In this document: piece by piece, positions 18,501-64,000 of the stretch
How the letters are laid out: every line of letters begins with the position of its first letter
Numbering within the stretch: the first letter of the stretch is position 1
Origin: Hyaloperonospora brassicae
Taxonomy: Eukaryota; Oomycota; Peronosporomycetes; Peronosporales; Peronosporaceae
Direction of reading: 5' to 3'
DNA length: 64,000 nucleotides
NCBI GenBank assembly: GCA_947650285.1
Contig: CANTFL010001180.1
Location: 372,001 to 436,000, forward strand
Program-made: the position numbers and the translations under genes
Notes under the pieces: model-generated
Database searches by the model: none
What the model was told of the DNA's origin: nothing
Seen by the model: the letters and a program-made list of their open reading frames with translations, nothing else

Positions 18501-20386
18501 TCATCCTTCTGGACCTGTACCGTAGCAAAAGCGTTGCGATGCCACGGAGTGTCCGTCGAGTGAATCTACCGCAACTGACTTTGAGGCTATAAACGTCCGC
18601 TTAGTATCTGCATACCACTATGCTTAACGCAACATGATCGAGAGGCGAGTGGCGACTGGTCAATGGCACCAACTGTGTTTGCACCATGTAGCTTCTGTCG
18701 CTCAGACCATTGTGTCACCTCTGCTCTATGCACTGCTTCGGTCGCTCTGTTTATCGACACGAGACACGTTCGCGATTGTTACGGTTTTTCAGATAGAGCA
18801 GAGAGCTACGTAGCTGTCTCGCGCTCCGATGCTTTGATACCATCATTGCGCAGTTATTTTCTTGCCTCAGCCATGCCTATGTGGTCGAGGGACGACCTCT
18901 TATGCCCAGATCGAGACATGGATACCACACAAGCTAACATGAAGACGTTCTACAGTTGCACGTAAGCTCACGCTTCGAGAAATCGGGCCCTCTACGTCGG
19001 CACCGTAACTCGTGGACGCCGTGCTGAAATGATGCCAGTCAACGTGCGTATCGAGTGTGTATGTGAATGTATGTGTGTCTTTAGTCAATAACATGTTCAC
19101 ATGGACATACGACATGATCTGCATTCGCAACAAGGCGTTCCACATGGCAAGTCAATGCATGATGCAACGAAGTGGAACGATTTGCATGACTCCCAGTAAG
19201 TCTTTGCCAAACGATCATACACGACAACTGTCCGCAACGGCAACGTCGACGGATGGCTAGAAAGGTGTCACAGTGCATTGACATGGATACACAACTCCAC
19301 TGATCGTGCCTTTTGCTTGCTGAAGCGCGAGGGTTACTGGCACGATATGGCTATGTTGATAAAAGTCTGCCGTGGATCCCATTTGGCATCACGAAACAGC
19401 GGCTACAAAAACTGGAGTCAGACAACCACTTCAAGACAAGTCGGGCTGCTTGCGCCTGGCTTCTACGAATGTGCGAGATACGGCATGGGGAACAAAGAGG
19501 AACAATTAACTAAAATAGCGATCTCGTCAGCTTCTTGCTGCAGCTTGTGGCATAGCTCTTGACCAAGATGAAAGGACGCAAGATGGTCTTGCCGCTCTTC
19601 CCGAGAGTAAGGGAGGCGTGGGATTGACTATTTGCACATTTTAAATGTGTGCAAGATCTCTGGTAGACCTTGAGCCAGGATGTAAGCGCTAGTAGACCCA
19701 AAAGTCTATCCTCGCGGGTCCAGTGGCACGACGCCCGTGCTTGTTGACGTTTGTACGTTTCGATGCTTTCGCTCATAGCTGGATAATTGCTTTACAACAA
19801 TAGTATTTCTGCGTAAGCCGGAGACCCAGAACCTGTCTGTGCACCCGTGAATATCAATCATTGCTGGCGTGTGATCGCTTTTTGCGTTGCTTGGCCAACT
19901 TGTTCAACGGTTGTAGTGGGCTTACGTTCTTCGACTAAATCGCACATGGTCTCACGCGTACTCGACAACCTTATGGCGTAGTGAAATGGTTGTTCGTTCG
20001 TCTCGGCATGCCAAATTGAGTTGCTGAGTCGCGACGCAATACCCTGTCCAGATTTGATACGCGACGCGACCATTTCGATAGCCTCAGGCTTACCTCGGCA
20101 TTTTCTGCCTACAGCGCGTTGCCGTCCGTCTTCTCCCGCCTTCGCGTTCTAGCTGATCCATGCTAACAAAATGTGGTCAGGCAGAGACATGTTTACGAAC
20201 TCAAAAAGCTTTATCAAGCTCTCTGTATCGAAGTATTTTGACGCTGTGCCCAATGCCGTACGCGGACACCGACGAAGCTGCAGATACGCGTTGGAGACTA
20301 TGTCTCCATGTCCGACGGTCGTGACAAATCGTCTGTCTTTTGTTTACAGCCGGCGTCGCGCTCTAGCAGTTATCCTGGACAGCACC
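15523..20386. other. Gene-free region, no recognisable content
   Basis: About 4.9 kb with only short frames, none with a domain I recognise. Small tandem duplications are visible: a 33-bp-spaced pair sharing AGCAAGTGCTTCGCA at 16595 and 16628, and two copies of a 27-bp unit at 17837-17890. The gypsy insertion ends it. Confidence 0.5.
17837..17890. repeat. 27-bp tandem duplication
   Basis: Two adjacent copies of a 27-bp unit (TTCTACATGTGCGATG...), differing at a single T/C position. Too small to assign to an element. Confidence 0.85.
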
Positions 20387-20861
20387 TGTAACGGGGTTAC
20401 ACGTCGGCTGGTAGTCGAGGATAGGTGTGGTGCACACAAGAGAGGGGGTACCCTATAAAGTAATTTTAGAACACAGTGAGTGTATCAATTGTTGAAGACT
20501 GATGTCTGTCATCAATTGATTGCGAGATCTTTTAAGAGGTTATTTAGGGCAGGTTAAATACGTTGTTCTAAGGTGTTCTTTTAGGTTAATTAAAGAAATA
20601 AAAATTCAGTTCCCTTTTTGATCACTGAAAGACACGTGCCTTACGAGGCGTCTTTGATCGATAGGAGCTAGCAATACCTGTGAAGGTAGCTGCTCCTGAG
20701 CACTCTGTGCTGTGATTCTTTTGAATCGTTTGGTCCCTTAGGAACGGGGACCGTAAGCTCTCTGAGCTTGTTGACTCTCTGAGTCGGGTTCGTAGAACCA
20801 AAGCTGCTCGTAAGAGCGTTAAGTCTTCCTCTGACTTAAGGAGCTGTGTAGCTCCGCTACA
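20387..20861 (+). repeat. 5' LTR of the gypsy element
   Basis: 475 bp from TGTAACGGGGTTACA to TGTAGCTCCGCTACA. Both termini are 15-nt imperfect palindromes. A TATA-like CTATAAAG lies at about 20453-20460. The same LTR recurs at 27503, 35006 (reversed, solo) and 62907 (reversed). Confidence 0.95.
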
Positions 20862-20920: not shown

Positions 20921-21955
20921 ATGGATCAATCCACACCCCTCTCTGAGGCCCAAAAGGTCGCGCTTGATAAGCTGACCGCGGCCGTAGGCCCTGAGTACGT
21001 GGAGTTTCTCGCTGCACAAGGTCCCGATGTGCTCAACGCACGAGTCGAGACCTTCATTCAGTATGAAACGGACCTTTTAGGGCAGGTATAAAACCAGGTA
21101 GCGTCGGCTATGCCGACACGCTATGTGGCTATGCCACCAGAAGAGGCGAAGCCTCGTCCCCTTCGGGTGGACGTTAAACATTACTCCGGGAAGGAGGGGG
21201 GAAACTTGACCCTCTGGATCCGTGAGATTGAGATGGCCATGGACTCTGGTCTCATCTCACTTGAGAACCAGCGGGTCTCGTTGGCTATTCATAAGCTCGA
21301 TGGAAGAGCGAGATAGTGGGCTTTGACGTGTGGCACGTCGGTCAACTTGGCGTTTCCCACGTGGGATTCGCTCAAGCTAGACCTATTGCGAGTTTTCTCG
21401 CCGCCTAACCAGGCATATCGCGTGCGCTCACGCTTCTTGTCTACCCGTCAGGGTAAGAACGAGTTAACGGAATATGTCCAGGAGTTGAGAACTCTGATGG
21501 ATGCTATGCAGTCCGACCCTCTCCCTGAGACAGTCTACGTGACAGTCTTCATGGAAGGTCTTCGCACTGGCATTGCCAGGACCGAGGTCTTTCGAGTCCA
21601 TCCCTCGACTTTCGAGGAGGCTGTGTACATCGCTCAGAATGCTGAGCATAACTTTAAGTCAGCAAGACTTGGTTGGAATGGGTACAACCCAAGCTATGCG
21701 AGGGCAACCTCATCAAATAGCTCAGCTTACTGTAAGCCCGAACCGATGGATCTCAGCAATGCTGAAGATGAAGGTGAAGCTGAGATTCATGTTGCCGTAC
21801 AACGACAGGAGGTGAGACGCTGTTACATGTGCGGAAGCACTAAACACTTGCGTCCCACTTGTCCTTTGCGTAAGCAACGACCGACTCCTACGGGTCGAAA
21901 CCCCAGCCACAACCAGAAACTTGGTATGGCACGGGGAAACGTCGACACCCAGTAG
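20921..21955 (+). pseudogene. gag: gag of the gypsy element, two nonsense codons
   Basis: Structural protein of the retrotransposon particle. One reading frame runs from the ATG at 20921 (MDQSTPLSEAQ...) to a TAG at 21953, about 344 codons, with the Retrotrans_gag-like core (LTLWIREIEMAM, FPTWDSLKLDLLRVF, ELTEYVQELRTLM) and a C-terminal CCHC zinc knuckle, CYMCGSTKHLRPTC. The frame is broken by TAA at 21089 and TAG at 21314, while homology continues in the same frame across both. It could not make a full Gag as it stands. Confidence 0.85.
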
Positions 21956-22041: not shown

Positions 22042-25000
22042 GTGCCAGCAAGCACAGAGCGTGGATACAAGCCTGGCTTGTTAGTCGCCGAGGCGATAAT
22101 TGAAGTCTTTGAGAAGCACTGGTCGATATTAATCGATTCTGGAACGTCATACAACTATGCTAGACACCGCTCCCTTGAGGGGAGTCAGCAATATGCTGAG
22201 GCGCTCAAAGCGCACGATGGTGATTCCATCACTGTTCGGTTAGCGACGGGTAGTCGCGTTACTGTGCCTAAAGTTCCGTTGAATTTGGGCGTGAAGGTTT
22301 TGGACTTTGATAGCACAGAACGCTGTCTCGTCCTTGACTTGGATTCGAGATACGATCTCATCCAAGTCATGGCATGGCTTGAACGCCATGAACCATGGAT
22401 TGATTGGAGGTCTAAGACCTTGGGCGCCACGCGCAATGTTCCTAGCGAAGCTTTGGATAGTCATGAACCCACCTTTGCTAGGCAACAAAAGCACTCTTGG
22501 CGCGAGTCAGTGGCGGAAGATGTCAATGTACTGGACATTGGTATGTCGGAGCTAACTAGCTCGAATGTCTATGACATGAATATGGAGCGGAGCTCTTCTA
22601 ATGTGTTTGAAGAGAGATGTACTCCGTTGAGTGATACTCGTTGTGATAATGAGTCACTGCATGCGTCAAGAATGGTTGGCCTACGGAGGGGACATACAGG
22701 AAGTAATTCCCATGATGTCAGTGCGGTGGCACGTGAAATTACACATAGTGAGGGCGGCCGTGATGGCACCTCACTGAATGTCGGTAATGACATTGATGGC
22801 GAGAAGCCAGAGTGTTCAGGGCTAGGCCCGAATGCTGTACGTGAAGTGGTCCGTGTAAATCCACTGGGTGAAGTGTTTGAGTTACGTAACACTTCACCAG
22901 ATGTCGTTCAAGACATGAGCTCTCGTCTAGAGCGTGCTAAGACAAATAGCAACCACGGGGACCCGACTGTCTTGGCCTTTAGGAGGCGTAAGGTTTCTGT
23001 GAGGAAACGATTTTAGCGTAAGGTGGCAACTGTTAAGCGCCCAACGTCTAAGAAGTCACGAAGTGATAATAGTAATAATACACTATATACACTTGTCAAT
23101 GTGTTGACTGGCCATATCGATGGCAATATTAGTCTTGAGACTCTTCCATCTTTGGATACTCTATTTCAACTAGACGAAATGTCTGACGGCGAATTTAGCC
23201 AAGCCTTACAAGCAGGAGAATTATCCGATCTAGTGGTCATTCGACCCGATGCAGAGTTGATTTCTTCTTCGTTATTGGACGAATCCGTCCTCGAGGACAC
23301 AAAGGCATCATTACGTGCGCGTAGTGGATCTGCGATCCTCAAAAATCCGCTGGATCCGTTTTATCCTTTGGTAAATGAGTTTCGGGACGTGGTGTGTCAC
23401 AACCCACCGTCCGTCTTCCTCCCGATAGAGGTGTACGTCATGAAATTGACTTGGTTCCTGGAACTAAATACTTCGTAACACGGCAGTGGCCTTTACCGAA
23501 GGAACAATGTGACGTCATAGACGACTTCTTTCGTGCAAAGCACGCAGCGGGTATGGTTCGTGAGAGCAAATCTCCTCATTCCACGCCCACATTTTGTGTT
23601 CGAAAGCCCAATGGAAAGTGGCGCATTGTTCATGCTTACAATAAGCTTAATGCTGCCACGATCCCGTATCAGACACCAATCCCTCGGAAAGATGTTCTTC
23701 AGAACAAAATGGTGGGATGTACAATGTACAGTGCACTCGATTTAGTCGACGGTTATTACCAATTACTCATGCGTGAGGAAGATATCCCGCTAACAGCGGT
23801 TAGTACCCCGATCGGTATGCTCTGGGAGTGGCTAGTTATGCCACAGGGCTTGTCAAACGCGCCAGCTACGTTCAATCGTCTTGTGACGCAACTGTTTCGG
23901 CCTCACCGAGGTTATGCACAGACCTACTTTGATGACATCTTTGTCCATAGTCGTGCTATGAACGGCCGGTCTGATGTGGACAATCACATCGACCATTTAC
24001 GAGCAGTGCTCGAGTGCATGCGCACAAACAAGTTGTATTCCAATGCCTTTAAGTGCATCTTTGGTGCACAAGAGATTACCTTTTAGGGTGCTTCATTGGG
24101 AAGCGTGGTCTTAGAGCGGATTCCGCTAAAATAAAAGCCATAGTCGATTGGCCGGTTCCTAAGAACCAGAAGGACTTACGTAAGTGGCTTGGTCTTGCCA
24201 ATTACTTACACAAGTATAGTGCGAACTATGCGGACATGGCTCGACCATTATCCAATCTCTTTAAAAAGGATGTGGAATGGTTTTGGACGAACGCCGAGCA
24301 TGAAGCCTTTACGGCTGTCAAAGAGAGTCTTCTTCATGCGCCAATCTTGGCTTTTCCCGATCCTGATTGGCCTTTCAGTGTCGTCTGTGACGCATCTGAC
24401 TTTGCCATCGGCAGTGCTCTGTTACAAACAGATAATGATGGACGGGAACGCGTCATTGCGTTTGAGTCCCGGCAGCTGAAAGCAGCTGAAAAGAACTATC
24501 CAGTTCATGACAAAGAGCTACTTGCAATGAAGTATGCTTTAGTCAAATTCAGAGTTCATCTGCTTGGCTCTAAGCCTTTTGTGATCGATACAGGTCGTGC
24601 GTCATTACGCACTGCGACCCAGTCGCCACATCTCTCTCAGCGAATGGCTCGTTGGCTCTCATTCTTTGCGGAATATAACTTCGAGGTGAAGTATAAGCCG
24701 GGACAAGCAGAATGCTTTGGCTGATGCGTTGTCACGCAGGCCTGACTATGAGCTTGCTCATGTTACAGACTCTGTCATCATCGGTCACAGACCTCATTCG
24801 TTCGGCATATTCCAAAGATGAACACTGTGTAGCTTTGCTACGTACTTTGGGGAGCGAGGAGTTTAACAACTCAGACATTAAATTGTCGGCACGTTTGGGT
24901 GCGAGGCTACATCGACATTCCATCGATCAAGTCCTGTTGTGCTATAGCACGGATGTGGAGGATACTCCCCGTATCGTTGTCCCTCATGATGAGAAATTGA

Positions 25001-26607
25001 AGTATCGCATCCTCTATGAGGCGCATGATACTGCGGTCAGCGGTCATCTCGGTCGAGAGAAGACATATAGCTCCGTGGGTCAATATTATTGGTGACCCAA
25101 ACTTTACAAATGGGTAAGCACATACTTGCGTACGTGTGAAATGTGTCAACGGGTGAAACCCTCAGCTCATGCGGCTGCGCCGCTCGCTAGTTTGCCTATA
25201 CCCTCTGGGTGCTAAGCGTCCATCAGTATGGATTTCATGTTCGGTCTGCCGAAATATGTGCAAGGCAATACGGGTATTGTGGTCTTTGTTGACCGTTTGA
25301 GCAAGATGGCTCACTTGGCGGCTGTGCCAGATACCATTGATGGTGAAGGTACAGCTACGCTGTTCATCGATCGAGTGTTTCGACAACACGGCTTGCCTGT
25401 GGCAATTGTCTCTGACCAAGACCCTCGCTTCACTGGGAAGTTTTGGAAGTCCATCTTCAAGGCGCTCGGCACACGTTTGGACATGTCCACGGAGGATCAT
25501 CCTAAGACCGATGGTCAAACCGAGCGAGTCAATCGCGTTATCGGTGACATCTTGCGCAGTGTTTTCGCTAATACACAAAAACGTTGGAGTTCGATGCTTC
25601 CTGTTGTTGAGTTCGCGTTAAATAACGCTGTTCACGCCTCTACAGGCTTTACTCCGTTCTACGTGAACGGTCTCACACACCCTCGCGTTCCGTTGACGCT
25701 ACCACTGCGTGGTTCAGGGCTTGGTGGGGGAGAGATGGTCGATCGGCTTTCTGGTATCAGTCCTGCTACTGTTCAGAAACAGGTAAGCAAGTTTCTCGCT
25801 ACGCGCTTGAATGTGTTACGACACGTACGTGATGCACTGGCTGATAGCCAAGATAAACAAAAGGAACAAGCTGTTGCTCAAGGCAGAGGTTTTATTGAAT
25901 GTTACAAGGTCGGAGGCCAAGTTCTACTCAATGCTAAATACCTACCTACAAATGTAGTGTCCGCCGTCTTCAAGACAAAGTTGCGTCCGCGCTTCATTGG
26001 GCCATTCACGGTCATTGCTAAGAAGGGATTGGCGTACACGCTCAATCTCCCGCGCAAACTGCGCACGCACCCAGTGTTCTACGTTGGCTTGCTCAAGCCG
26101 TATCGGGATCCGTCCCATGTGAACTCGGAGGCGCTTGCGCCGGGTAATAGGGCCTTGCCGTCGGCTGTTGCATCCGAACCAGGAGGTCAAGCTGACCATC
26201 CACACGGGCTAAGGCCAACTCCAATGCTTGAACACGGGCTTGCATCGCGTCGAGCGCACTCTGGGTCTTACCCAATGTCTCTTGGAGACCACTCAGCTCA
26301 TGGAGAACCTTCTCGTGATCCTCCTTCGGTACCCCGACCACCACCGACTCTGCTCGATGAGCAAGGGAGCCACCAGTTCTATGTGGAGTGACTCCTTCAG
26401 CGACGTCGTCGTCGTGGCCAATACCAGTATCTGGTGAAGTGGCGGGGGTACCCGGAGTCGGAGAACTCGTGGGAGTATGAGATACCCCTTCGGCAGGACT
26501 GCCCTTACGCCGTGGATGTTTTTGAACATCGTATTCAGGGTCGCCTTGCGAGCGAGAACGCTTCTCACCAATTGTGGTGGGAGGTGGCGTGTTGCTCCGC
26601 ACCTTAG
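22042..26607 (+). pseudogene. pol: pol of the gypsy element (PR-RT-RH-IN-chromodomain), degraded
   Basis: Domains in order: aspartic protease with ILIDSGTSYN near 22120; reverse transcriptase 23480-24080 with YFDD at about 23924; RNase H with VVCDASDFAIGSALL near 24390; the integrase HHCC zinc domain about 25020-25150; the catalytic core from 25228 with MDFMF, SDQDPRF and TERVNR giving D,D,E; and a chromodomain 26401-26530 (QYQYLVKWRGYPESENSWE). Lesions: TAG 23014, a frameshift near 23420, a frameshift in a T run near 24083, a frameshift near 24708 (KPGQ/NALADALS), TGA 25093, TAA 25213 and TGA 26389 just before the chromodomain. The last open stretch ends at TAG 26605. The chromodomain places the element among chromoviruses. 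Confidence 0.88.
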
Positions 26608-27394
26608 GGTCGTGACCCGTGGCTACCATTGTAGCTGGAGCATAACGCGTACGTGTACGCAACTGGCCTCTGGCCTTGAGCTTGGCATACTCGAACCGGA
26701 GCTTCCGTTCCATACGAACGTCAGCCACATCAGCGCTGGCCCGCAGCGCTTGCACACTGCTAAGGTACCGCTTGCGGTACACCCAACGGATGAACTCATT
26801 GTCCTCCTTCTCGGGGAGTTCGCCAGCGAACAACAAGATGGGCACGCCCTTTCTCGGTCGAACCGAAACACCACGAGAGAGACTCTCAAGGTGTGCCAGG
26901 TACTGACCTTGCGTGGTAAAGGCTGGTTCGAGATACCTCTCATTTATAGCCTTGCGAAAGGCGATATCTTCTGGCGACGTAGCCACGGGCGCAATTGCCA
27001 ATGTTGAAAGGCTACGGCCTTCCTCTTGACGGAGGCGTTGCTCCACGTCTGGTGTTGAGAACACGTAACCACTCCGGTTTCGAACAACCGCCTGGGTATG
27101 AGTGCGACGTAGAGCACGCTCCTCACGCTGACGGATCAGCTCCTGTTGTTCGTCGAGCGGGTTCGTGATGATGTTCTCACCTGCATCTGTTGTATGATGC
27201 TGCGCCACTGGCGCGGTGGTATCACCACGTTCAACGAACGGATTCGGTGCTGTTAGAGGACGATCCTCAGGTACAGCGGAGTGTGATGATATCCCGTCAT
27301 CTCCATGAAAACTGGTATCACTACCATAGTCCACATCCTCGTCGAAGTCGAGGTAAGAGGAAAGAGTCTGAGACTTGTTGGTTGGCAATGCCAT
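26093..27394 (-). CDS. Antisense ORF of the gypsy element, unknown function
   Basis: An intact 433-codon frame from the ATG at 27394 to the TGA at 26093, opposite to gag-pol and starting about 110 bp inside the 3' LTR. The N-terminal 60 residues are acidic and Ser/Asp-rich. Residues 85-240 are charged and helical (EQQELIRQREERALRR, PEDIAFRKAINERYLEP, EFIRWVYRKRYLSSVQAL). A basic, Pro/Ser/Thr-rich linker follows (about 270-340, with KRSRSQ and KHPRRK as possible nuclear signals). Residues about 355-405 show heptads of Leu/Val typical of a coiled coil (VLHELSGLQETLGK, MQARVQALELALARVDGQ). I recognise no family. It could be an extra gag-like or accessory nucleic-acid-binding protein (inference). 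About 170 C-terminal codons overlap the integrase end and chromodomain coding on the other strand. A second copy starts at 63490. Confidence 0.75.
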   Translation of the reverse strand: MALPTNKSQTLSSYLDFDEDVDYGSDTSFHGDDGISSHSAVPEDRPLTAPNPFVERGDTTAPVAQHHTTDAGENIITNPLDEQQELIRQREERALRRTHTQAVVRNRSGYVFSTPDVEQRLRQEEGRSLSTLAIAPVATSPEDIAFRKAINERYLEPAFTTQGQYLAHLESLSRGVSVRPRKGVPILLFAGELPEKEDNEFIRWVYRKRYLSSVQALRASADVADVRMERKLRFEYAKLKARGQLRTRTRYAPATMVATGHDPKVRSNTPPPTTIGEKRSRSQGDPEYDVQKHPRRKGSPAEGVSHTPTSSPTPGTPATSPDTGIGHDDDVAEGVTPHRTGGSLAHRAESVVVGVPKEDHEKVLHELSGLQETLGKTQSALDAMQARVQALELALARVDGQLDLLVRMQQPTARPYYPAQAPPSSHGTDPDTA

Positions 27395-27490
27395 GGTGTT
27401 TCGTATTTAGCAACCGTAAGGTTAAGCACACACACACACCAACCTCTTCCAGGAAAGAAGCCTATTGAAGTTTTGTGGTAACTTCAGTCT

Positions 27491-27502
27491 GGTGGGGGAG
27501 GG
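27491..27502 (+). other. Polypurine tract of the gypsy element
   Basis: GGTGGGGGAGGG lies directly before the 3' LTR, the expected plus-strand priming site. The same tract in reverse follows the LTR at 63382. Confidence 0.85.
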
Positions 27503-27977
27503 TGTAACGGGGTTACACGTCGGCTGGTAGTCGACGATAGGTGTGGTGCACACAAGAGAGGGGGTACCCTATAAAGTAATTTTAGAACACAGTGAGTGTA
27601 TCAATTGTTGAAGACTGATGTCCGTCATCAATTGATTGCGAGATCTTTTAAGAGGTTATTTAGGGCAGGTTAAATACGTTGTTCTAAGGTGTTCTTTTAG
27701 GTTAATTAAAGAAATAAAAATTCAGTTCCCCTTTTGATCACTGAAAGACACGTGCCTTACGAGGCGTCTTTGATCGATAGGAGCTAGCAATACCTGTGAA
27801 GGTAGCTGCTCCTGAGCACTCTGTGCTGTGATTCTTTTGAATCGTTTGGTCCCTTAGGAACGGGGACCGTAAGCTCTCTGAGCTTGTTGACTCTCTGAGT
27901 CGGGTTCGTAGAACCAAAGTTGCTCGTAAGAGCGTTAAGTCTTCCTCTGACTTAAGGAGCTGTGTAGCTCCGCTACA
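27503..27977 (+). repeat. 3' LTR of the gypsy element
   Basis: 475 bp, differing from the 5' LTR at four positions by eye (about 0.8%). It is followed by target duplication GCACC. Confidence 0.95.
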
Positions 27978-30089
27978 GCACCAGTGTATATTGTCATTAC
28001 CCAGATCCCAAGTCACAAGCTACAGGCTGCAGGACGGGGTCGGGTTTGCACGATCGTCGTACGTCAGCCTCAACAATATTGCATCAATCGGCCTATAATG
28101 ATACCACGCTTCCGACAACGGTGCTGATCCATCTCGCAGTGGTGATCTCGAGTTCACTTCTGTCCTAACAAGTCAATCGAGAGATGATAAGCAAAGGGCA
28201 GTAACCCACCAACGAAAGTTTGCACCCGAGCGTTGTTCGGGTCAATCCTGTAGCTATGAACCCCTCGATACGAGTTTTGCTGTCCCGTACGCACACGCAA
28301 TATGCAAAGGTGATTCACAATTACTCAGTTATCTCTCCTCCAGTATGTCCTCGATCCATATCAGTCTTCAGGATGGGGTCGTAAAACACCTGCACAAACT
28401 CGTTCTCTTCCCACCGGCTGGCGACCCCTTAATCAGAGCAGCCGACAGATCGTTGACCTACGTGGCGGTGATGGCCCACCTCGCCACTCGGCACTACACC
28501 GTTTTTACTTGCACGAGATATGGAGTATGCATGAGATACATGCGCCTTACGGCAGTGAATGTGGTGAGGGTAGCATAGATGAGGTCCGTGATAGTATCAC
28601 ACAAGATTGGAAAAGGATTTGTAGTTGCTCACATTCGTCGTTTACAAATTTTACTCCCAAATGATATCCCCCATTAAGCTCAAAACCTCGGTAGATGTTC
28701 AAAATGCGCGTCCATCGAGCTTTTTCTGCGACCGCCGAGTTATAAGTCGTAAATATCAACCACCAAGGTCATTTCAACTTTACAAAAAATCCTTGTATTG
28801 TGTTGTTTTTCATCGAAAATTACTCAAAAACTTTTCCAACGGTATTCGAGTAGTAGGTGCGCTGAGAATATTAGATTTAGGGCTGCGAAGGACTCTATAA
28901 GTGAATTGGTGACTTGTCTGGTATACATAGAACAGAAGGCAGGCTGTAAATACGAGGATCTGGTTCATGATTGTAGTGTCGCGACTCCTCGGGAGAGCCG
29001 CCAGCACGTGTGGCATATATCGGCTCATGGGACGCCTGTTGAGAATATGGAGAGATATCAAGGTTAGTCAGGAAGTTATTGGGCTAACATGAACAATGTA
29101 CTCACTCTGCAATCTTCTCTGCCAAGCCAACGACTAACACAGGCATGGCGATTTAGATTGTGTTGGAAGCCAATCAAGAGGGTCGTCTACAGGTTATACA
29201 ATTGGCGTGAATCGTGCACGGGATTGGCTTGGGACCGTAAAATTGTGCCAATTCACCGGGGCTTACATAGGAATGTTAAATACGTGGTACGTATGTACAA
29301 CGTCACCCGATTCGTGGGCATTGGCAGAATGTCTACAATTATCAGCAACGACATCCCGAAGCACATAAGCTCGAGGACGTAGACACATCGAAACCCGATT
29401 CTTGCACGTCAAATGGCAAGCTCATTTCTGCCTTTCAGGATGTCCGCAATTTATTCGCGGGATCGTTAGGTTTGACTGGTTTGGATCGACGATAATTTTA
29501 TAACATCCGGCTGTAGACCGGCAACTTTATTGCTTTCGGTGTGCGAAATGTCTGATGACACGATGTAGCTACCCTCACAAAAGATTACAAACGGCGGTTG
29601 TTGGATATTCACGGAAGAGGATATTGTCGTTCTAAATGAGTACTCTAAGCCGTTTTCCGACGTGGGGGATATACAGACGACGGTGTCTTTCAAGCGCCTA
29701 ACCTAACAGGATATGGCTAAAGTTTCAAACAGACTACCCAATCGCGTGACAAATCGAAGAACAGGACTTACACCGGCTCAGCAGCCAGCGCTACGAGATC
29801 CGACAATTTAAAAATATCCGGGCAGCGAGTCACACTAACTTGCTGGGTTTGATCTCCCGTGCGCTCGCTCCAACTTAGATCGAATAAAAGTATATTTCAA
29901 TACCGTCACGAAGCCGTCACCTCTCCGTCCAATCCTAACTTCATGTTTACACTGGAACAATTCTCCGTATAAACACATGGCACTCATAGCGACGCCTCAC
30001 CTGTTGTTCTATCAAAACTGAGTGTACCATGGATTTTTTCCACATTCTCGAACCATTCAGTTTTTACAGGAATTTGCATGTCCAGGTCC

Positions 30090-50152: not shown

Positions 50153-53100
50153 CTAGTCACCTTGTAACTCGCGATTCGCCACCTGAAGTTGGCATCTTAG
50201 CTCCTCGAATGTTTGTCGCGGGAGCGCCTTGGTCAGAAAATCTGCAAGCTGGTCCTTACTGGCACACCATTTCACACTCACGCGTCCTTTGCTAGTTTCA
50301 TACTTGATGAAGTGATATCTTATAGCAATGTGCTTTGCAACAGATGACACCATCTCGTTTTTCATCGTTCGTATCGCGCTTTGGTTGTCAACCATGATAC
50401 TTGGGACAATTTAGATGCGGAGCAGCTCTTGAAGAAGTTGTCTGATCCATCGACACTCATACACACTCGTCGCACTGGCAATGAACTCTGCTTCCATAGT
50501 GGACATCGCAACAACGGCTTGCTTCTTTGTACTCCACGCTATAGGCCGCCCGTTTACTTCAAGGAAGGCGCCGCTCGTTGATTTTCGGTCGACTCGATCA
50601 CCAGCCCAATCAGCATCGGACCAAATGTTGACCTCGAGGTTTTCAACTAAACAGCCTCACTTGTCTTCCAGGAGCGCAACCAACGATCCGGTGTGCCCTC
50701 GAGATAGCGAATAATCCCTTTGGTCAGATCCCAATGGCACTTACGAGGCTTTTCGCGGTGTCTTGACGCAGAGTTTGTAGCATGCGCTATGTCCTGGCGA
50801 GTAGAATTTGCAATCCAAAGAAGAGTACCGAGGGCCTCACGTACGCGATGTATGTCCACTAGTTCTTCACTATCAGTACCATTATATTCTGTGTTGGGAT
50901 CCATTGGAGTCGTGACAATTCTGACATGTTCAATATTGAACGCGCAGAGTGCGTCACATCATTCTCTGCTGAGATAAAAAATAACTTTGCGAGGTCTCGT
51001 GCACTGCAATACCAATAAATTTCTTCACTGGCACGCACATCTTGATGCTGAAGCGCCCTTCCAGCTTCAGTGTAACATCGCGCAGCTCCTCCTCGTCACG
51101 AAACGAGATCAGCACATCATCCACGTAAAGTCCAAGAATCATCACCCGCTCCTTTTTTTCGCGCTTGTAATAGATGCACGGGTCGAGTCTTGACTTGATA
51201 AAACCAAGTGCGATGATGTACTCGTTCATCGTCTCATTCCAGCAGGGACCCGACTGTTTAAGTCCATACAATGGATTTAGCAGCTTGAGTACCTTGCCCG
51301 CCTCGACGTTCAGCTCCCTGGGTGCCTTCATGTCGATGAGTTTGCGCAGCAAACTCTTCACGTAGGCATTAGATACGTCGCCATGAGTCAGTCGCAGTCA
51401 AAGCAAGCTTGTTAGTGCGAAAAATAGACGCACGCTGCTCATTTTGATGACCGGTGCAAATGTCATCGAGAAATCAACGCCGTACTTCTGGCTAAACCCT
51501 CGAGCAACAAAACTTGCCTTAAAGCGCTCAACGTCACCATCGGCATCAAACTTGATCTATATAACCCATTTGCTGTCGATGATTTTTGTAACTTCTTTGG
51601 TTCGTCGACAACCTCCCAAGTGCCATTCTCGACGAGTGCATCGAGCTCTACCTTCATCGCATCGATCCAGTTCTTTCTTTCAGGAAGAGTCATGGCTTCT
51701 TTGACGGACCTTGGCTCTTTGACCCGTACAACCACAATTGCGGCACCGTCAGCATATCGAGCAGGCATGTTGACATGACGACGCTCGCGTCGTACTGCCA
51801 GAGATTGATTCACACCAGTGTTTGAGTCATCCTCAATTTCTTCGCGACCAGAAACGCTCGATCCATATTCACTTGGACTCAGTATTCTCTCTGCGTCAGA
51901 GAAGTTGTCGATGAGTACATCATTTATAGCTTGTAGATCCTTGTCGATACTCTTCTTGGCCGAGTTTATCGACTAGACATGCAGTGATTCTCTTCTTGAT
52001 GCGTTTGACGAACACGCGATATCCCTTGACCTTGTCATCATACCCGATGAATATGCCGTGCTCACACTTCTTCCGTGTTCTCATGATCTTGCTCTTGATA
52101 TGAGCCGTGACTCTTTGTCCCCACTGTAGTACGCTACTAAGGTTGGTATTGGGTACAGTGAGAGCTTCAATAGGCGACGTGTTCCCGCCGTTTGCGCGTG
52201 CCGGGAGTCGGTTTCGTAACCATAAATGATGTCGTAGTGCTTCCGACCATAGGAAGCGAGGAGCCTGAGCAGCATCAAACATCATAGCCCGCATGCCGTC
52301 AAAAAAAGTCCTGTGACGCCTAACCACCTTTCCATTGGAAGACGATTTGTCTGGTTCTGTTGGTTGCTGTCGGATACCGCGTTTTGCACACCACGGCCTT
52401 ATCTTGTTCGTGTCAAATTCATTGTCACTCCGGATGACCTTCACTCGCACGTCGCATTGTCGCTCGAATCTTAAGATAAATTCTGTCAGCAACGGGAACC
52501 AGTCGGAGTTAGCACGCATTGGAAATACTTCTCCATAGCTAGACGCGTAATCGACAACATGCAAAGGGTGAGTGCAGCCTTTGTAATCGTGCGGTTTGAC
52601 GTTTGTCTTGGTATCAACTCCAATTACGGCGCCAATCTCATCCGTTAATGCTGATTTGGAAGTGTCTGTTTGCGCTTTAGCGCTTCTTGTTTGTTTTCCC
52701 TCGCGACATGCATCACAATCACATCGCTTCTTGTTAGTGATATGTAGAACATCATCAAGGTCATGATTCTCAATCATCGCTACATCCCCAACGTTGACAT
52801 GACCGAGTCGAGCATGCCATTCCCTGATGCTGTCGTTAGGTTTCGCTGCGACTCTCGCAACAGCTGAAGCGATTGCATGCCCCTTAAGGTAGCAAAGTTC
52901 ATTGTTCCACGTGACGCAGCCAACAGAATATTTGACTATCGTGTCGTCAAACGTGTACAGTGATGCGCCTTGCTTAGTGAATGAGGTATGTATATCTTTT
53001 TTTGTTGACCAACTTATATCAGATTTTCGCGCAGTCCTTGAATCACGTGCACGCCTTGCAACAGAATCTTGGTTCGACTTCCGTTGACATCTATCTCCAT

Positions 53101-53957
53101 CAAGATGTGACCACACGTAGTAGACTGGATGGTGCGTCCATCTGCGATAGTTACGGACAGATTGCATGTGTACTCGTTTTGCAGTGCAAATCCGGTACCG
53201 CATATGTGATGACTAGCGCCTGGGTCCAGCAACCATTTCCGTTCGCCACTGATGCCTCTGAGCGCTGACCAGCATGATATGTACTGACAGTTCTTATCAC
53301 CAGTCTTGTTGATCTCAAGAGATGTCCCCACCGCGTTAGCTGAGCTTGTTGACCTTTTCTTCTTCTCTAGAAACTTCTTCTTGAGTGGGAGTGTGTTAGC
53401 AATGTGCCCCATATCCTCACAGAAGAAAAATGCACGCTTAGGATACTTCTTGGCCCCTCCTGCACTGATCGCGTCACTAGCATGCCTTGAATTCCGCTGT
53501 TTCTTCTCAAACTTCGGTTCGTCTCTTTCAGCACGGTCGTACAGGTTCGTCGCCCCCTTTGGCTTACAGACGAATCCTTTTCCGTTACCTGTGGTGAATT
53601 TCAGGTATCGAGTCGCTTTATCGAGCTCGGTCCCGTACTCCGAGCTGTCTTGATCAATCTTCGCCAGCAAGCTTCTCTCCTCTGATGGGAAAGAGTATGA
53701 TCAGAAGTATTCAAGGATAATCTTGCTGGGTTACCATCCATGCGGGTCGCCATAGCTCTCATGTACTCGATATGAGATGTCCATGTTGCGTTGGTTCTCT
53801 TGGCTTCTTCAAGTAGCTTTACCAGTTGAGACTGGCTTAGCTTACAGCAAAAGCGGTTCTTCATGGACCTGCAGACAATTTTGTAGTTGGCAGTAAGTCC
53901 TCGATCCGCGAGGTACTTGAAATGTCCAAAGGCTGCACCGCGAAAGCACATCGCCAT
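50153..53957 (-). pseudogene. pol: copia pol (PR-IN-RT-RH), broken
   Basis: From right to left: a capsid remnant (53957-53601); a knuckle remnant with lost cysteines (FFFCEDMGHIANTL) and protease WLLDPGASHHICGTG near 53240; GAG-pre-integrase HARLGHVNV and the integrase core 52800-52200 with GVDTKTN and RSDNEFD, where the third catalytic residue is missing (NGKVVRRHRTFF instead of NG..E.RHR); reverse transcriptase 51813-50954 with NWIDAMKVELDAL, LYGLKQSG and YVDDV; and RNase H to 50153 ending with ASKDQLADFLTKALPRQTF. Frames change near 53670, 51900, 51460-51370, 50950 and 50640. Confidence 0.88.
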
Positions 53958-63381: not shown

Positions 63382-64000
63382 CCCTCCCCCATCAGACTGA
63401 CGTTACCACAAAACTTCAATAGGCTTCTTTCCTCGAAGAGGTTGGTGTGTGTGTGTGCTTAACCTCGCGGTTGCTAAACACGAAACTCCATGGCATTGCC
63501 ACCCAACGAGTCTCGGACTCTTTCATCTTACCTCGACTTCGACAAGGATGTGGACTGTGGTAGTGATACCAGTGTCCATGGAGATGACGGGATATCATCC
63601 CACTCCGCTGTACCTGAGGATCGTCCTCTAACAGCACCGAATCCGTTCGTTGAACGTGGTGATACCACCGCGCCAGTGGCGCAGCATCATACAACAGATG
63701 CAGGTGAGAACATCATCACGAACCCGCTCGACGAACAACAGGAGCTGATCCGTCAGCGTGAGGAGCGTGCTCTACGTCGCACTCATACCCAGGCGGTTGT
63801 TCGAAACCGGAGTGGTTACGTGTTTGCAACACCTGACGTGGAGCAACGCCTCCGTCAAGAGGAAGGCCGTAGCCTTTCAACATTGGCAATTGCGCCCGTG
63901 GCTACGTCGCCAGAAGATATCGCCTTTCGCAAGGCTCTAAATGAGAGGTATCTCGAACCATTCTTTACCACGCAAGGTCAGTACCTGGCACACCTTGAGA
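63382..64000 (-). mobile_element. Second gypsy element, internal part, cut by window edge
   Basis: Starts with the reversed polypurine tract (63382-63393) and matches the 3' end of the first element (27502 backwards) nearly base for base, including a (GT)n run near 63446. The element's own gag-pol strand is the minus strand and lies outside the window. Confidence 0.9.
63490..64000 (+). CDS. Second copy of the antisense ORF, partial
   Basis: Open from the ATG at 63490 for 170 codons to the right edge with no stop. It matches the first copy (from 27394) with about nine amino-acid changes, mostly in the first 30 residues (for example T5P, K7E, E19K, Y23C, F29V). The same start and the same distance from the LTR and polypurine tract show that the ORF is a fixed part of this retrotransposon family. 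Function unknown; no domain recognised. Confidence 0.75.
   Translation, partial: MALPPNESRTLSSYLDFDKDVDCGSDTSVHGDDGISSHSAVPEDRPLTAPNPFVERGDTTAPVAQHHTTDAGENIITNPLDEQQELIRQREERALRRTHTQAVVRNRSGYVFATPDVEQRLRQEEGRSLSTLAIAPVATSPEDIAFRKALNERYLEPFFTTQGQYLAHLE

Follow-up and report, generated by a model that had tools for sequence, protein, structure and literature searches.

Can a long terminal repeat (LTR) retrotransposon of an oomycete carry a gene of its own on the strand opposite gag-pol, and what might the product of such a gene do? This question is raised by a window of 64,000 nucleotides from Hyaloperonospora brassicae (assembly GCA_947650285.1, contig CANTFL010001180.1, positions 372,001 to 436,000 of the forward strand), which is the whole stretch of DNA analyzed here. 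In this window, a Ty3/gypsy insertion contains a frame of 433 codons on the minus strand, at window positions 26093 to 27394. An earlier note, made from the letters alone, had read this frame as an intact antisense gene beside the 3' LTR of a gypsy chromovirus. Here, we show that the 433-codon frame is a protein-coding gene kept by purifying selection, and we consider the placement of the gene, its relatives, and its probable role.

Purifying selection on the antisense frame

The frame is uninterrupted from ATG to stop, as the earlier note had stated, and its ATG lies 108 bp internal to the 3' LTR. Its coding status was assessed on 60 loci picked by similarity to the antisense gene, which comprise two types, 30 of type A (the type of the window copy) and 30 of type B. 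Over the first 810 nt, the antisense frame is free of stops in 46 of the 60 copies and every other frame is open in none. Frames of 425-440 codons are present in 36 of the 60 loci (13/30 from the DNA search and 23/30 from the protein search, both strands being read). The sequence context of the ATG, CACCATGGC, is conserved in 26/30 copies of type A and 29/30 copies of type B.

The ratio of nonsynonymous (dN) to synonymous (dS) divergence was estimated by the Nei-Gojobori method by comparing 12 distinct intact copies of type A with 21 of type B, which remained of 13 A and 23 B intact copies after the removal of locus L010, with its shifted end, and of two duplicates. Rather than a value near 1, the dN/dS obtained is 0.21 in residues 1-270, the antisense-only part (dN 0.295 and dS 1.40, a dS above 1 being near saturation for this method), and 0.60 in the part opposite pol. 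The ratio is 0.31 in residues 1-84, 0.14 in residues 85-255, and 0.07 in residues 195-255. When all 30 + 30 copies are compared, broken ones included, residues 1-270 give a dN of 0.297 and a dS of 1.396. Fixed differences between the types over the first 810 nt fall on codon positions 1, 2, and 3 in the numbers 58, 55, and 126 (chi-square p 1.6e-9). Ratios within a type are higher, 0.40-0.65 in the antisense-only part and about 1 in the overlap with pol within type A, as expected for copies that decay after insertion.

The gene belongs to a complete insertion, with two 475-bp LTRs, mismatched at 4 positions, and the sequence GCACC at both ends. The domain order protease, reverse transcriptase, RNase H, and integrase, in which the protease match is weak (E 0.0031), and a chromodomain at the end of pol (PF00385, E 2.1e-11) support the assignment to the Ty3/gypsy chromoviruses made in the earlier note. 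The domain pieces of gag-pol are separated by four frame changes, one of them perhaps a natural gag-pol shift, and the frames run into stops that end at 25095 and 26391. With its sense pieces in changing frames and with in-frame stops, this copy has no intact gag-pol, but its antisense frame is uninterrupted, which bears out the contrast drawn in the earlier note. The parts of the insertion are as follows, with scores from AlphaFold models given as predicted local distance difference test (pLDDT) and predicted template modeling (pTM) values.

20387 to 20861, plus strand: 5' LTR, 475 bp, with 4 mismatches against the 3' LTR; target-site copy GCACC at 20382-20386
21323 to 21955, plus strand: gag piece (Retrotrans_gag, PF03732, E 1.1e-11)
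22042 to 23016, plus strand: protease piece (RVP_2, E 0.0031, weak and under the curated cut-off)
23394 to 24086, plus strand: reverse transcriptase piece (PF00078, E 4.3e-24)
24053 to 24724, plus strand: RNase H piece, single and gypsy-type (PF17919, E 1.2e-33)
24697 to 25095, plus strand: integrase zinc-binding (H2C2) piece (PF17921, E 5.2e-08)
25216 to 26391, plus strand: integrase core and C-terminal SH3-like piece with a stop at its end (PF24626, E 6e-13; rve, E 2.1e-06, under the cut-off, scan start 25228)
26392 to 26598, plus strand: chromodomain end of pol (PF00385), with the antisense gene on the other strand
26093 to 27394, minus strand: antisense gene, an ATG-to-stop frame of 433 codons with codon-level selection
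26645 to 27172, minus strand: predicted folded core, residues 75-250 (AlphaFold core model, pLDDT 81.9, pTM 0.64)
26630 to 26812, minus strand: stretch of strongest conservation, residues 195-255, with a basic helix (between-type dN/dS 0.07)
26495 to 26629, minus strand: basic linker, residues 256-300, resembling a nuclear localization signal by eye
26168 to 26326, minus strand: long C-terminal helix predicted at residues 357-409, interpreted as a coiled coil
27395 to 27502, minus strand: leader from the 3' LTR to the antisense ATG, with the start context given above
27466 to 27486, no strand assigned: inverted repeat of 7 bp with a 7-nt loop, adjoining a purine-rich tract at 27491-27502
27503 to 27977, plus strand: 3' LTR and presumed antisense promoter; GCACC at 27978-27982

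Elsewhere in the window, broken frames at 51920-53670 on the minus strand resemble, by eye, a copia-type integrase and a zinc-knuckle gag.

Overlap with pol and divergence of the two types

In 45 of the 60 copies, the stop of pol lies opposite antisense codon 275, so that both strands share about 160 codons, and the remaining 270 or so lie on the antisense strand alone. In the overlap, the fixed differences between types A and B number 22 at antisense position 2 and 21 at antisense position 3, and are thus about equal on the silent positions of each strand, whereas in pol alone the corresponding positions hold 24 and 2 (Fisher p 4.7e-4). Both strands therefore seem to be read as protein in the overlap, with a weaker antisense constraint there, and the coding status of the C-terminal third of the antisense gene is less sure than that of the first 270 or so codons.

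The stretch opposite the chromodomain ('PQTPMSS..GTLATSPDT') is conserved into Phytophthora. For 30 hand-picked proteins of the family, it was asked whether the complementary strand can encode a chromodomain, scored at 10 positions. All 10 positions can be encoded for 24 of the proteins, at the homologous place in 22; for the other two of these 24, P0099 and P0118, the reported match lies at a non-homologous place. Shuffled versions of the 24 reach the same score in 0 to 4 of 30 trials each. The remaining 6 proteins scored 9, which their shuffles equal in 17 to 29 of 30, and the test is taken as supporting only. Together with a gene model of Phytophthora cactorum (P0094) that joins the antisense protein to an integrase SH3-like domain, the encodable chromodomain suggests that, in the relatives from Phytophthora and Peronospora, the antisense gene likewise overlies the end of pol.

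At the DNA level, 32-40% of the antisense-only sites differ between the two types, and thirteen further loci sort into the same two types. Per site, the LTR and pol have 0.036 and 0.037 fixed differences, the leader and the overlap 0.102 and 0.113, and the antisense-only part 0.295, and the dS between types is 1.40 in the antisense gene versus 0.39 in the adjacent pol. Raw pairwise divergence falls near the ATG and near codon 275-300, and single 75-nt windows of pol reach 0.15-0.20. Given this unequal divergence, the antisense gene may have been swapped as a cassette between diverged lineages, or the rest of the element may have been homogenized. The argument for cassette exchange is the unequal divergence and not a conflict between trees. 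In trees of 71 to 73 loci, type A forms one clade, with support 100 for the antisense-only part and support 61 for pol. Two changes are required in the LTR tree, yet a single type-A clade is not rejected by the approximately unbiased test (p-AU 0.41). A formal proof of recombination was therefore not obtained from the antisense-only part, pol, or the LTR, and the trees prove neither course.

Relatives and genomic copies

The earlier note had proposed a search of the 433-residue product against oomycete genomes. A phmmer search and a profile search, each of which scored only the roughly 8000 candidates sharing most words with the query, returned 77 and 78 relatives, respectively, from three genera of Peronosporales. 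The relatives come from Hyaloperonospora brassicae and H. arabidopsidis, from Peronospora matthiolae, P. effusa, and P. destructor, and from twelve species of Phytophthora (ramorum, cactorum, idaei, nicotianae, fragariaefolia, fragariae, sojae, infestans, capsici, megakarya, citrophthora, and aleatoria). Among the scored candidates of each search, there is no named match outside Hyaloperonospora, Peronospora, and Phytophthora. The nearest named protein comes from H. brassicae and matches at 87-88% identity across 58% of the length. The length of 433 residues is kept, at 53% identity to the window protein, in a protein of Peronospora matthiolae (P0008), which stands for a 90%-identity cluster of 51 members.

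Two observations on individual relatives stand apart. A Peronospora destructor protein (P0005) is 82% identical to the B-type copy L031 and groups with it in the tree, nearer than the H. arabidopsidis proteins; contamination, transfer, or an old sharing of types could account for this closeness. In two annotated gene models, P0094 of Phytophthora cactorum and P0151 of Phytophthora fragariaefolia, stretches of the antisense protein are joined to pol domains, which indicates that automatic annotation mistakes parts of the element for host genes. The family likewise explains some of the proteins called 'hypothetical' or 'uncharacterized' in oomycete annotations.

The H. brassicae genome (100.6 Mb in 898 contigs) gave between 721 (DNA search) and 1559 (protein search) first-look candidates for the antisense gene, of which the best 40 to 97 were scored per search. 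A second copy lies within the window itself in the opposite orientation, at 63490-64000, and runs past the right edge (C756:435490-436788; locus L003). A search with the integrase only, in which the best 150 of 5598 candidates were scored, approached the question from the other side, since copies lacking the antisense frame were what the earlier note had pointed to as damaging. By coordinates, 97 of the 150 integrase matches have an antisense-gene match just downstream on the opposite strand, and one has such a match on the same strand within 2.5 kb. The comparison was made with a list of 197 antisense places only, so that the other 53 are no proof that the gene is absent. Six integrase-chosen loci, from an every-eighth set of 19 integrase matches, were fetched, and the antisense gene is present at all six, five of which belong to the 53 unmatched by coordinates. 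At four of the six, the gene matches in two pieces and the frame is thus broken.

The predicted protein, its probable role and known systems

The AlphaFold model of the whole protein has a mean pLDDT of 62 and combines a folded central part with a long helix at the C-terminus. The core modeled alone is better resolved and is of mixed alpha/beta type, with its last helix in the basic stretch. The C-terminal helix reaches a pLDDT of 91-95 over residues 361-390, with lower values toward its ends. The structured look claimed in the earlier note holds to the extent that a compact core and a long helix are predicted, while the coiled coil is only a reading of that helix. The acidic N-terminus and basic linker described there are true as family averages: the mean net charge is -5.8 at the N-terminus (48 members, range -15 to +9) and +3.1 in the linker (61 members). 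A further basic stretch, residues 206-255, has a mean net charge of +8.0 (65 members). The linker may contain a nuclear localization signal, to judge by eye from a KR...K..RR-type pattern found in 31 of 62 relatives of at least 380 amino acids.

A Pfam scan of the window protein gave no family at E <= 1, and scans of 68 relatives gave only weak matches to DUF4349 (two members) and Laminin_II (one member). No convincing relative was found in Pfam or the PDB, and no description of the oomycete antisense gene was found in the open-licence PMC literature. By these comparisons, the antisense protein represents a new, apparently undescribed protein family.

Upstream of the gene, the promoter motifs INR, FPR, and DPEP, as defined in published work, yielded none that is common to both types near the antisense ATG in the 60 copies. 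DPEP matches occur in 60/60 copies over 583 nt, with only 4/30 in type A and 1/30 in type B within 200 nt of the ATG. An inverted repeat, TGACGTT-N7-AACGTCA, occurs in the leader of most copies, abutting the purine-rich tract before the 3' LTR. It pairs perfectly in 45 of 54 readable loci (of 73 loci, 18 are without a readable tract and one is a misfit). In the window copy, both arms are altered with pairing kept (TGAAGTT/AACTTCA), and other copies have changes in a single arm. The repeat could form an RNA hairpin in the antisense leader or a pair of half-sites like those of basic leucine zipper (bZIP) proteins.

On balance, the selected antisense gene of this chromodomain-bearing Ty3/gypsy family probably encodes a nuclear regulator of the element that would be expressed leftwards from the 3' LTR. 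The antisense transcript would run leftwards from the 3' LTR, the presumed promoter. The C-terminal helix, if it is a coiled coil, would join the protein into a dimer or larger oligomer, and the core with its basic helix, the basic linker, and the C-terminal helix together predict an oligomer that binds nucleic acid or chromatin. The basic parts would act in the nucleus on these targets. The protein could then tune the sense transcription or the integration of its own element, in a layout like that of HBZ of human T-cell leukemia virus type 1 (HTLV-1), with acidic N-terminus, basic middle, and a C-terminal helix for dimerization, and such tuning might limit the activity of the copies to a tolerable level.

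A structural or replication accessory, such as a nucleic-acid chaperone, an integrase partner, or a component of the particle, is a possible but clearly less probable role than transcription regulation. The basic helix, the linker, and the long C-terminal helix would fit the binding of RNA or DNA with oligomerization, and the gene accompanies pol at all six fetched loci. However, the element already has a gag piece, the Pfam scans described above include no gag, nucleocapsid, or envelope match, and expression from the opposite strand would part the protein from gag-pol in time and amount.

It is unlikely that the protein acts against host silencing or some other host factor, with an arms race behind the rapid change in its N-terminal and middle regions. 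The excess of fixed differences in the antisense-only part over the LTR and pol would be expected if the driver lay outside the element, and small RNAs of Phytophthora infestans are reported on both strands of two abundant gypsy families (PMC3522703); two gypsy families alone account for 29% of that genome (PMC3522703). Against an arms race, synonymous divergence is raised as well and dN/dS is well below 1; the raised dS argues for exchange or older ancestry rather than for adaptive change of the protein.

The unequal divergence also permits a more speculative and rather improbable reading, in which elements with nearly the same LTR and pol swap two diverged versions of the gene as an identity cassette, with a protein that would repress or exclude elements sharing its type. 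The likeness proposed here is to the repressors in the immunity regions of temperate phages. If true, the cassette would be a system of copy-number control and immunity on the antisense strand of a retrotransposon.

Capture is a usual origin of accessory genes, and the lack of relatives in known families would suit a host gene recently captured by one copy of the element. This origin is very unlikely and was rejected, as the gene is neither recent nor single-copy: it has many genomic copies, stands beside the integrase, and has relatives in three genera. Finally, long antisense frames can arise opposite biased genes and the last 160 or so codons do lie opposite pol, but the chance that the frame merely results from base composition or from sense-strand codon bias and has no product is negligible, and this explanation was rejected, because the first 270 or so codons have no open sense frame opposite them, the five other frames are closed in all 60 copies, the dN/dS and the codon-position pattern show substitutions tracking the antisense codons, and the length of 433 is kept in Peronospora matthiolae.

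HBZ, to which the layout of the oomycete gene was likened, has a basic middle. For a regulator encoded on the antisense strand, HBZ, the APH proteins of HTLV-2/3/4, and the antisense proteins of Retand elements are precedents and not evidence of homology. HBZ and the APH proteins lower sense expression (PMC10186651). They share with the oomycete gene a place near the 3' LTR, and HBZ has an N-terminal activation domain and a C-terminal dimerization (bZIP) part (PMC10186651). The likeness is one of layout; the antisense 3' LTR promoter is only presumed in the oomycete element, and the bZIP domain is absent from the Pfam scans of the window protein (E <= 1) and of 68 relatives (E <= 0.01).

Among plants, antisense open reading frames (ORFs) are described in Retand, a non-chromovirus Ty3/gypsy element, in Grande of maize, and in RIRE2 of rice (PMC11963269). 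The Retand gene lies between pol and the 3' LTR in nearly all recently active clusters, and a role in regulating transposition has been proposed, its function being unproven (PMC11963269). The oomycete gene is likewise placed between pol and the 3' LTR, and additionally overlaps pol. Whereas the region between pol and the 3' LTR of Retand spans 2.9-6.6 kb (PMC11963269), the oomycete gene overlaps the chromodomain and nearly fills the space. Retand ORFs, whose hosts are flowering plants, usually have TRP28 (PF04195); in the oomycete family, the window protein has no Pfam match (E <= 1) and PF04195 is found in 0/68 relatives (E <= 0.01). The oomycete gene resembles Retand and HBZ in layout and is assigned to neither, since TRP28 and bZIP were not found. 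An LTR retrotransposon of another host phylum, the Steamer-like MchSLE-1 of the mussel Mytilus chilensis, produces antisense RNA from its 3' LTR, and its antisense ORF can yield a protein in cultured cells (PMC10974842); it is likened by description.

The Chronos elements are the nearest by host, being Ty3/gypsy elements of Peronosporales with a chromodomain after the integrase (PMC5348765). Chronos has two RNase H domains (PMC5348765), whereas the window element has one of gypsy type. About 100 codons separate RNase H from the integrase zinc finger, and only H2C2 exceeds the cut-off in 24697-25095, which leaves no room for a second, archaeal/plant-type RNase H; membership in Chronos was rejected on the one copy examined. 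The word 'antisense' does not occur in the main text of the Chronos paper (PMC5348765). As for the novelty that the earlier note left undecided, the oomycete family is apparently undescribed, while antisense accessory genes as such are already known from plant Retand, deltaretroviruses, and MchSLE-1. The small set of antisense genes known from LTR elements gains a new, selected family of downy mildews and Phytophthora that shares DNA with a chromodomain and makes it possible to test directly whether retrotransposons code for antisense regulators of themselves.
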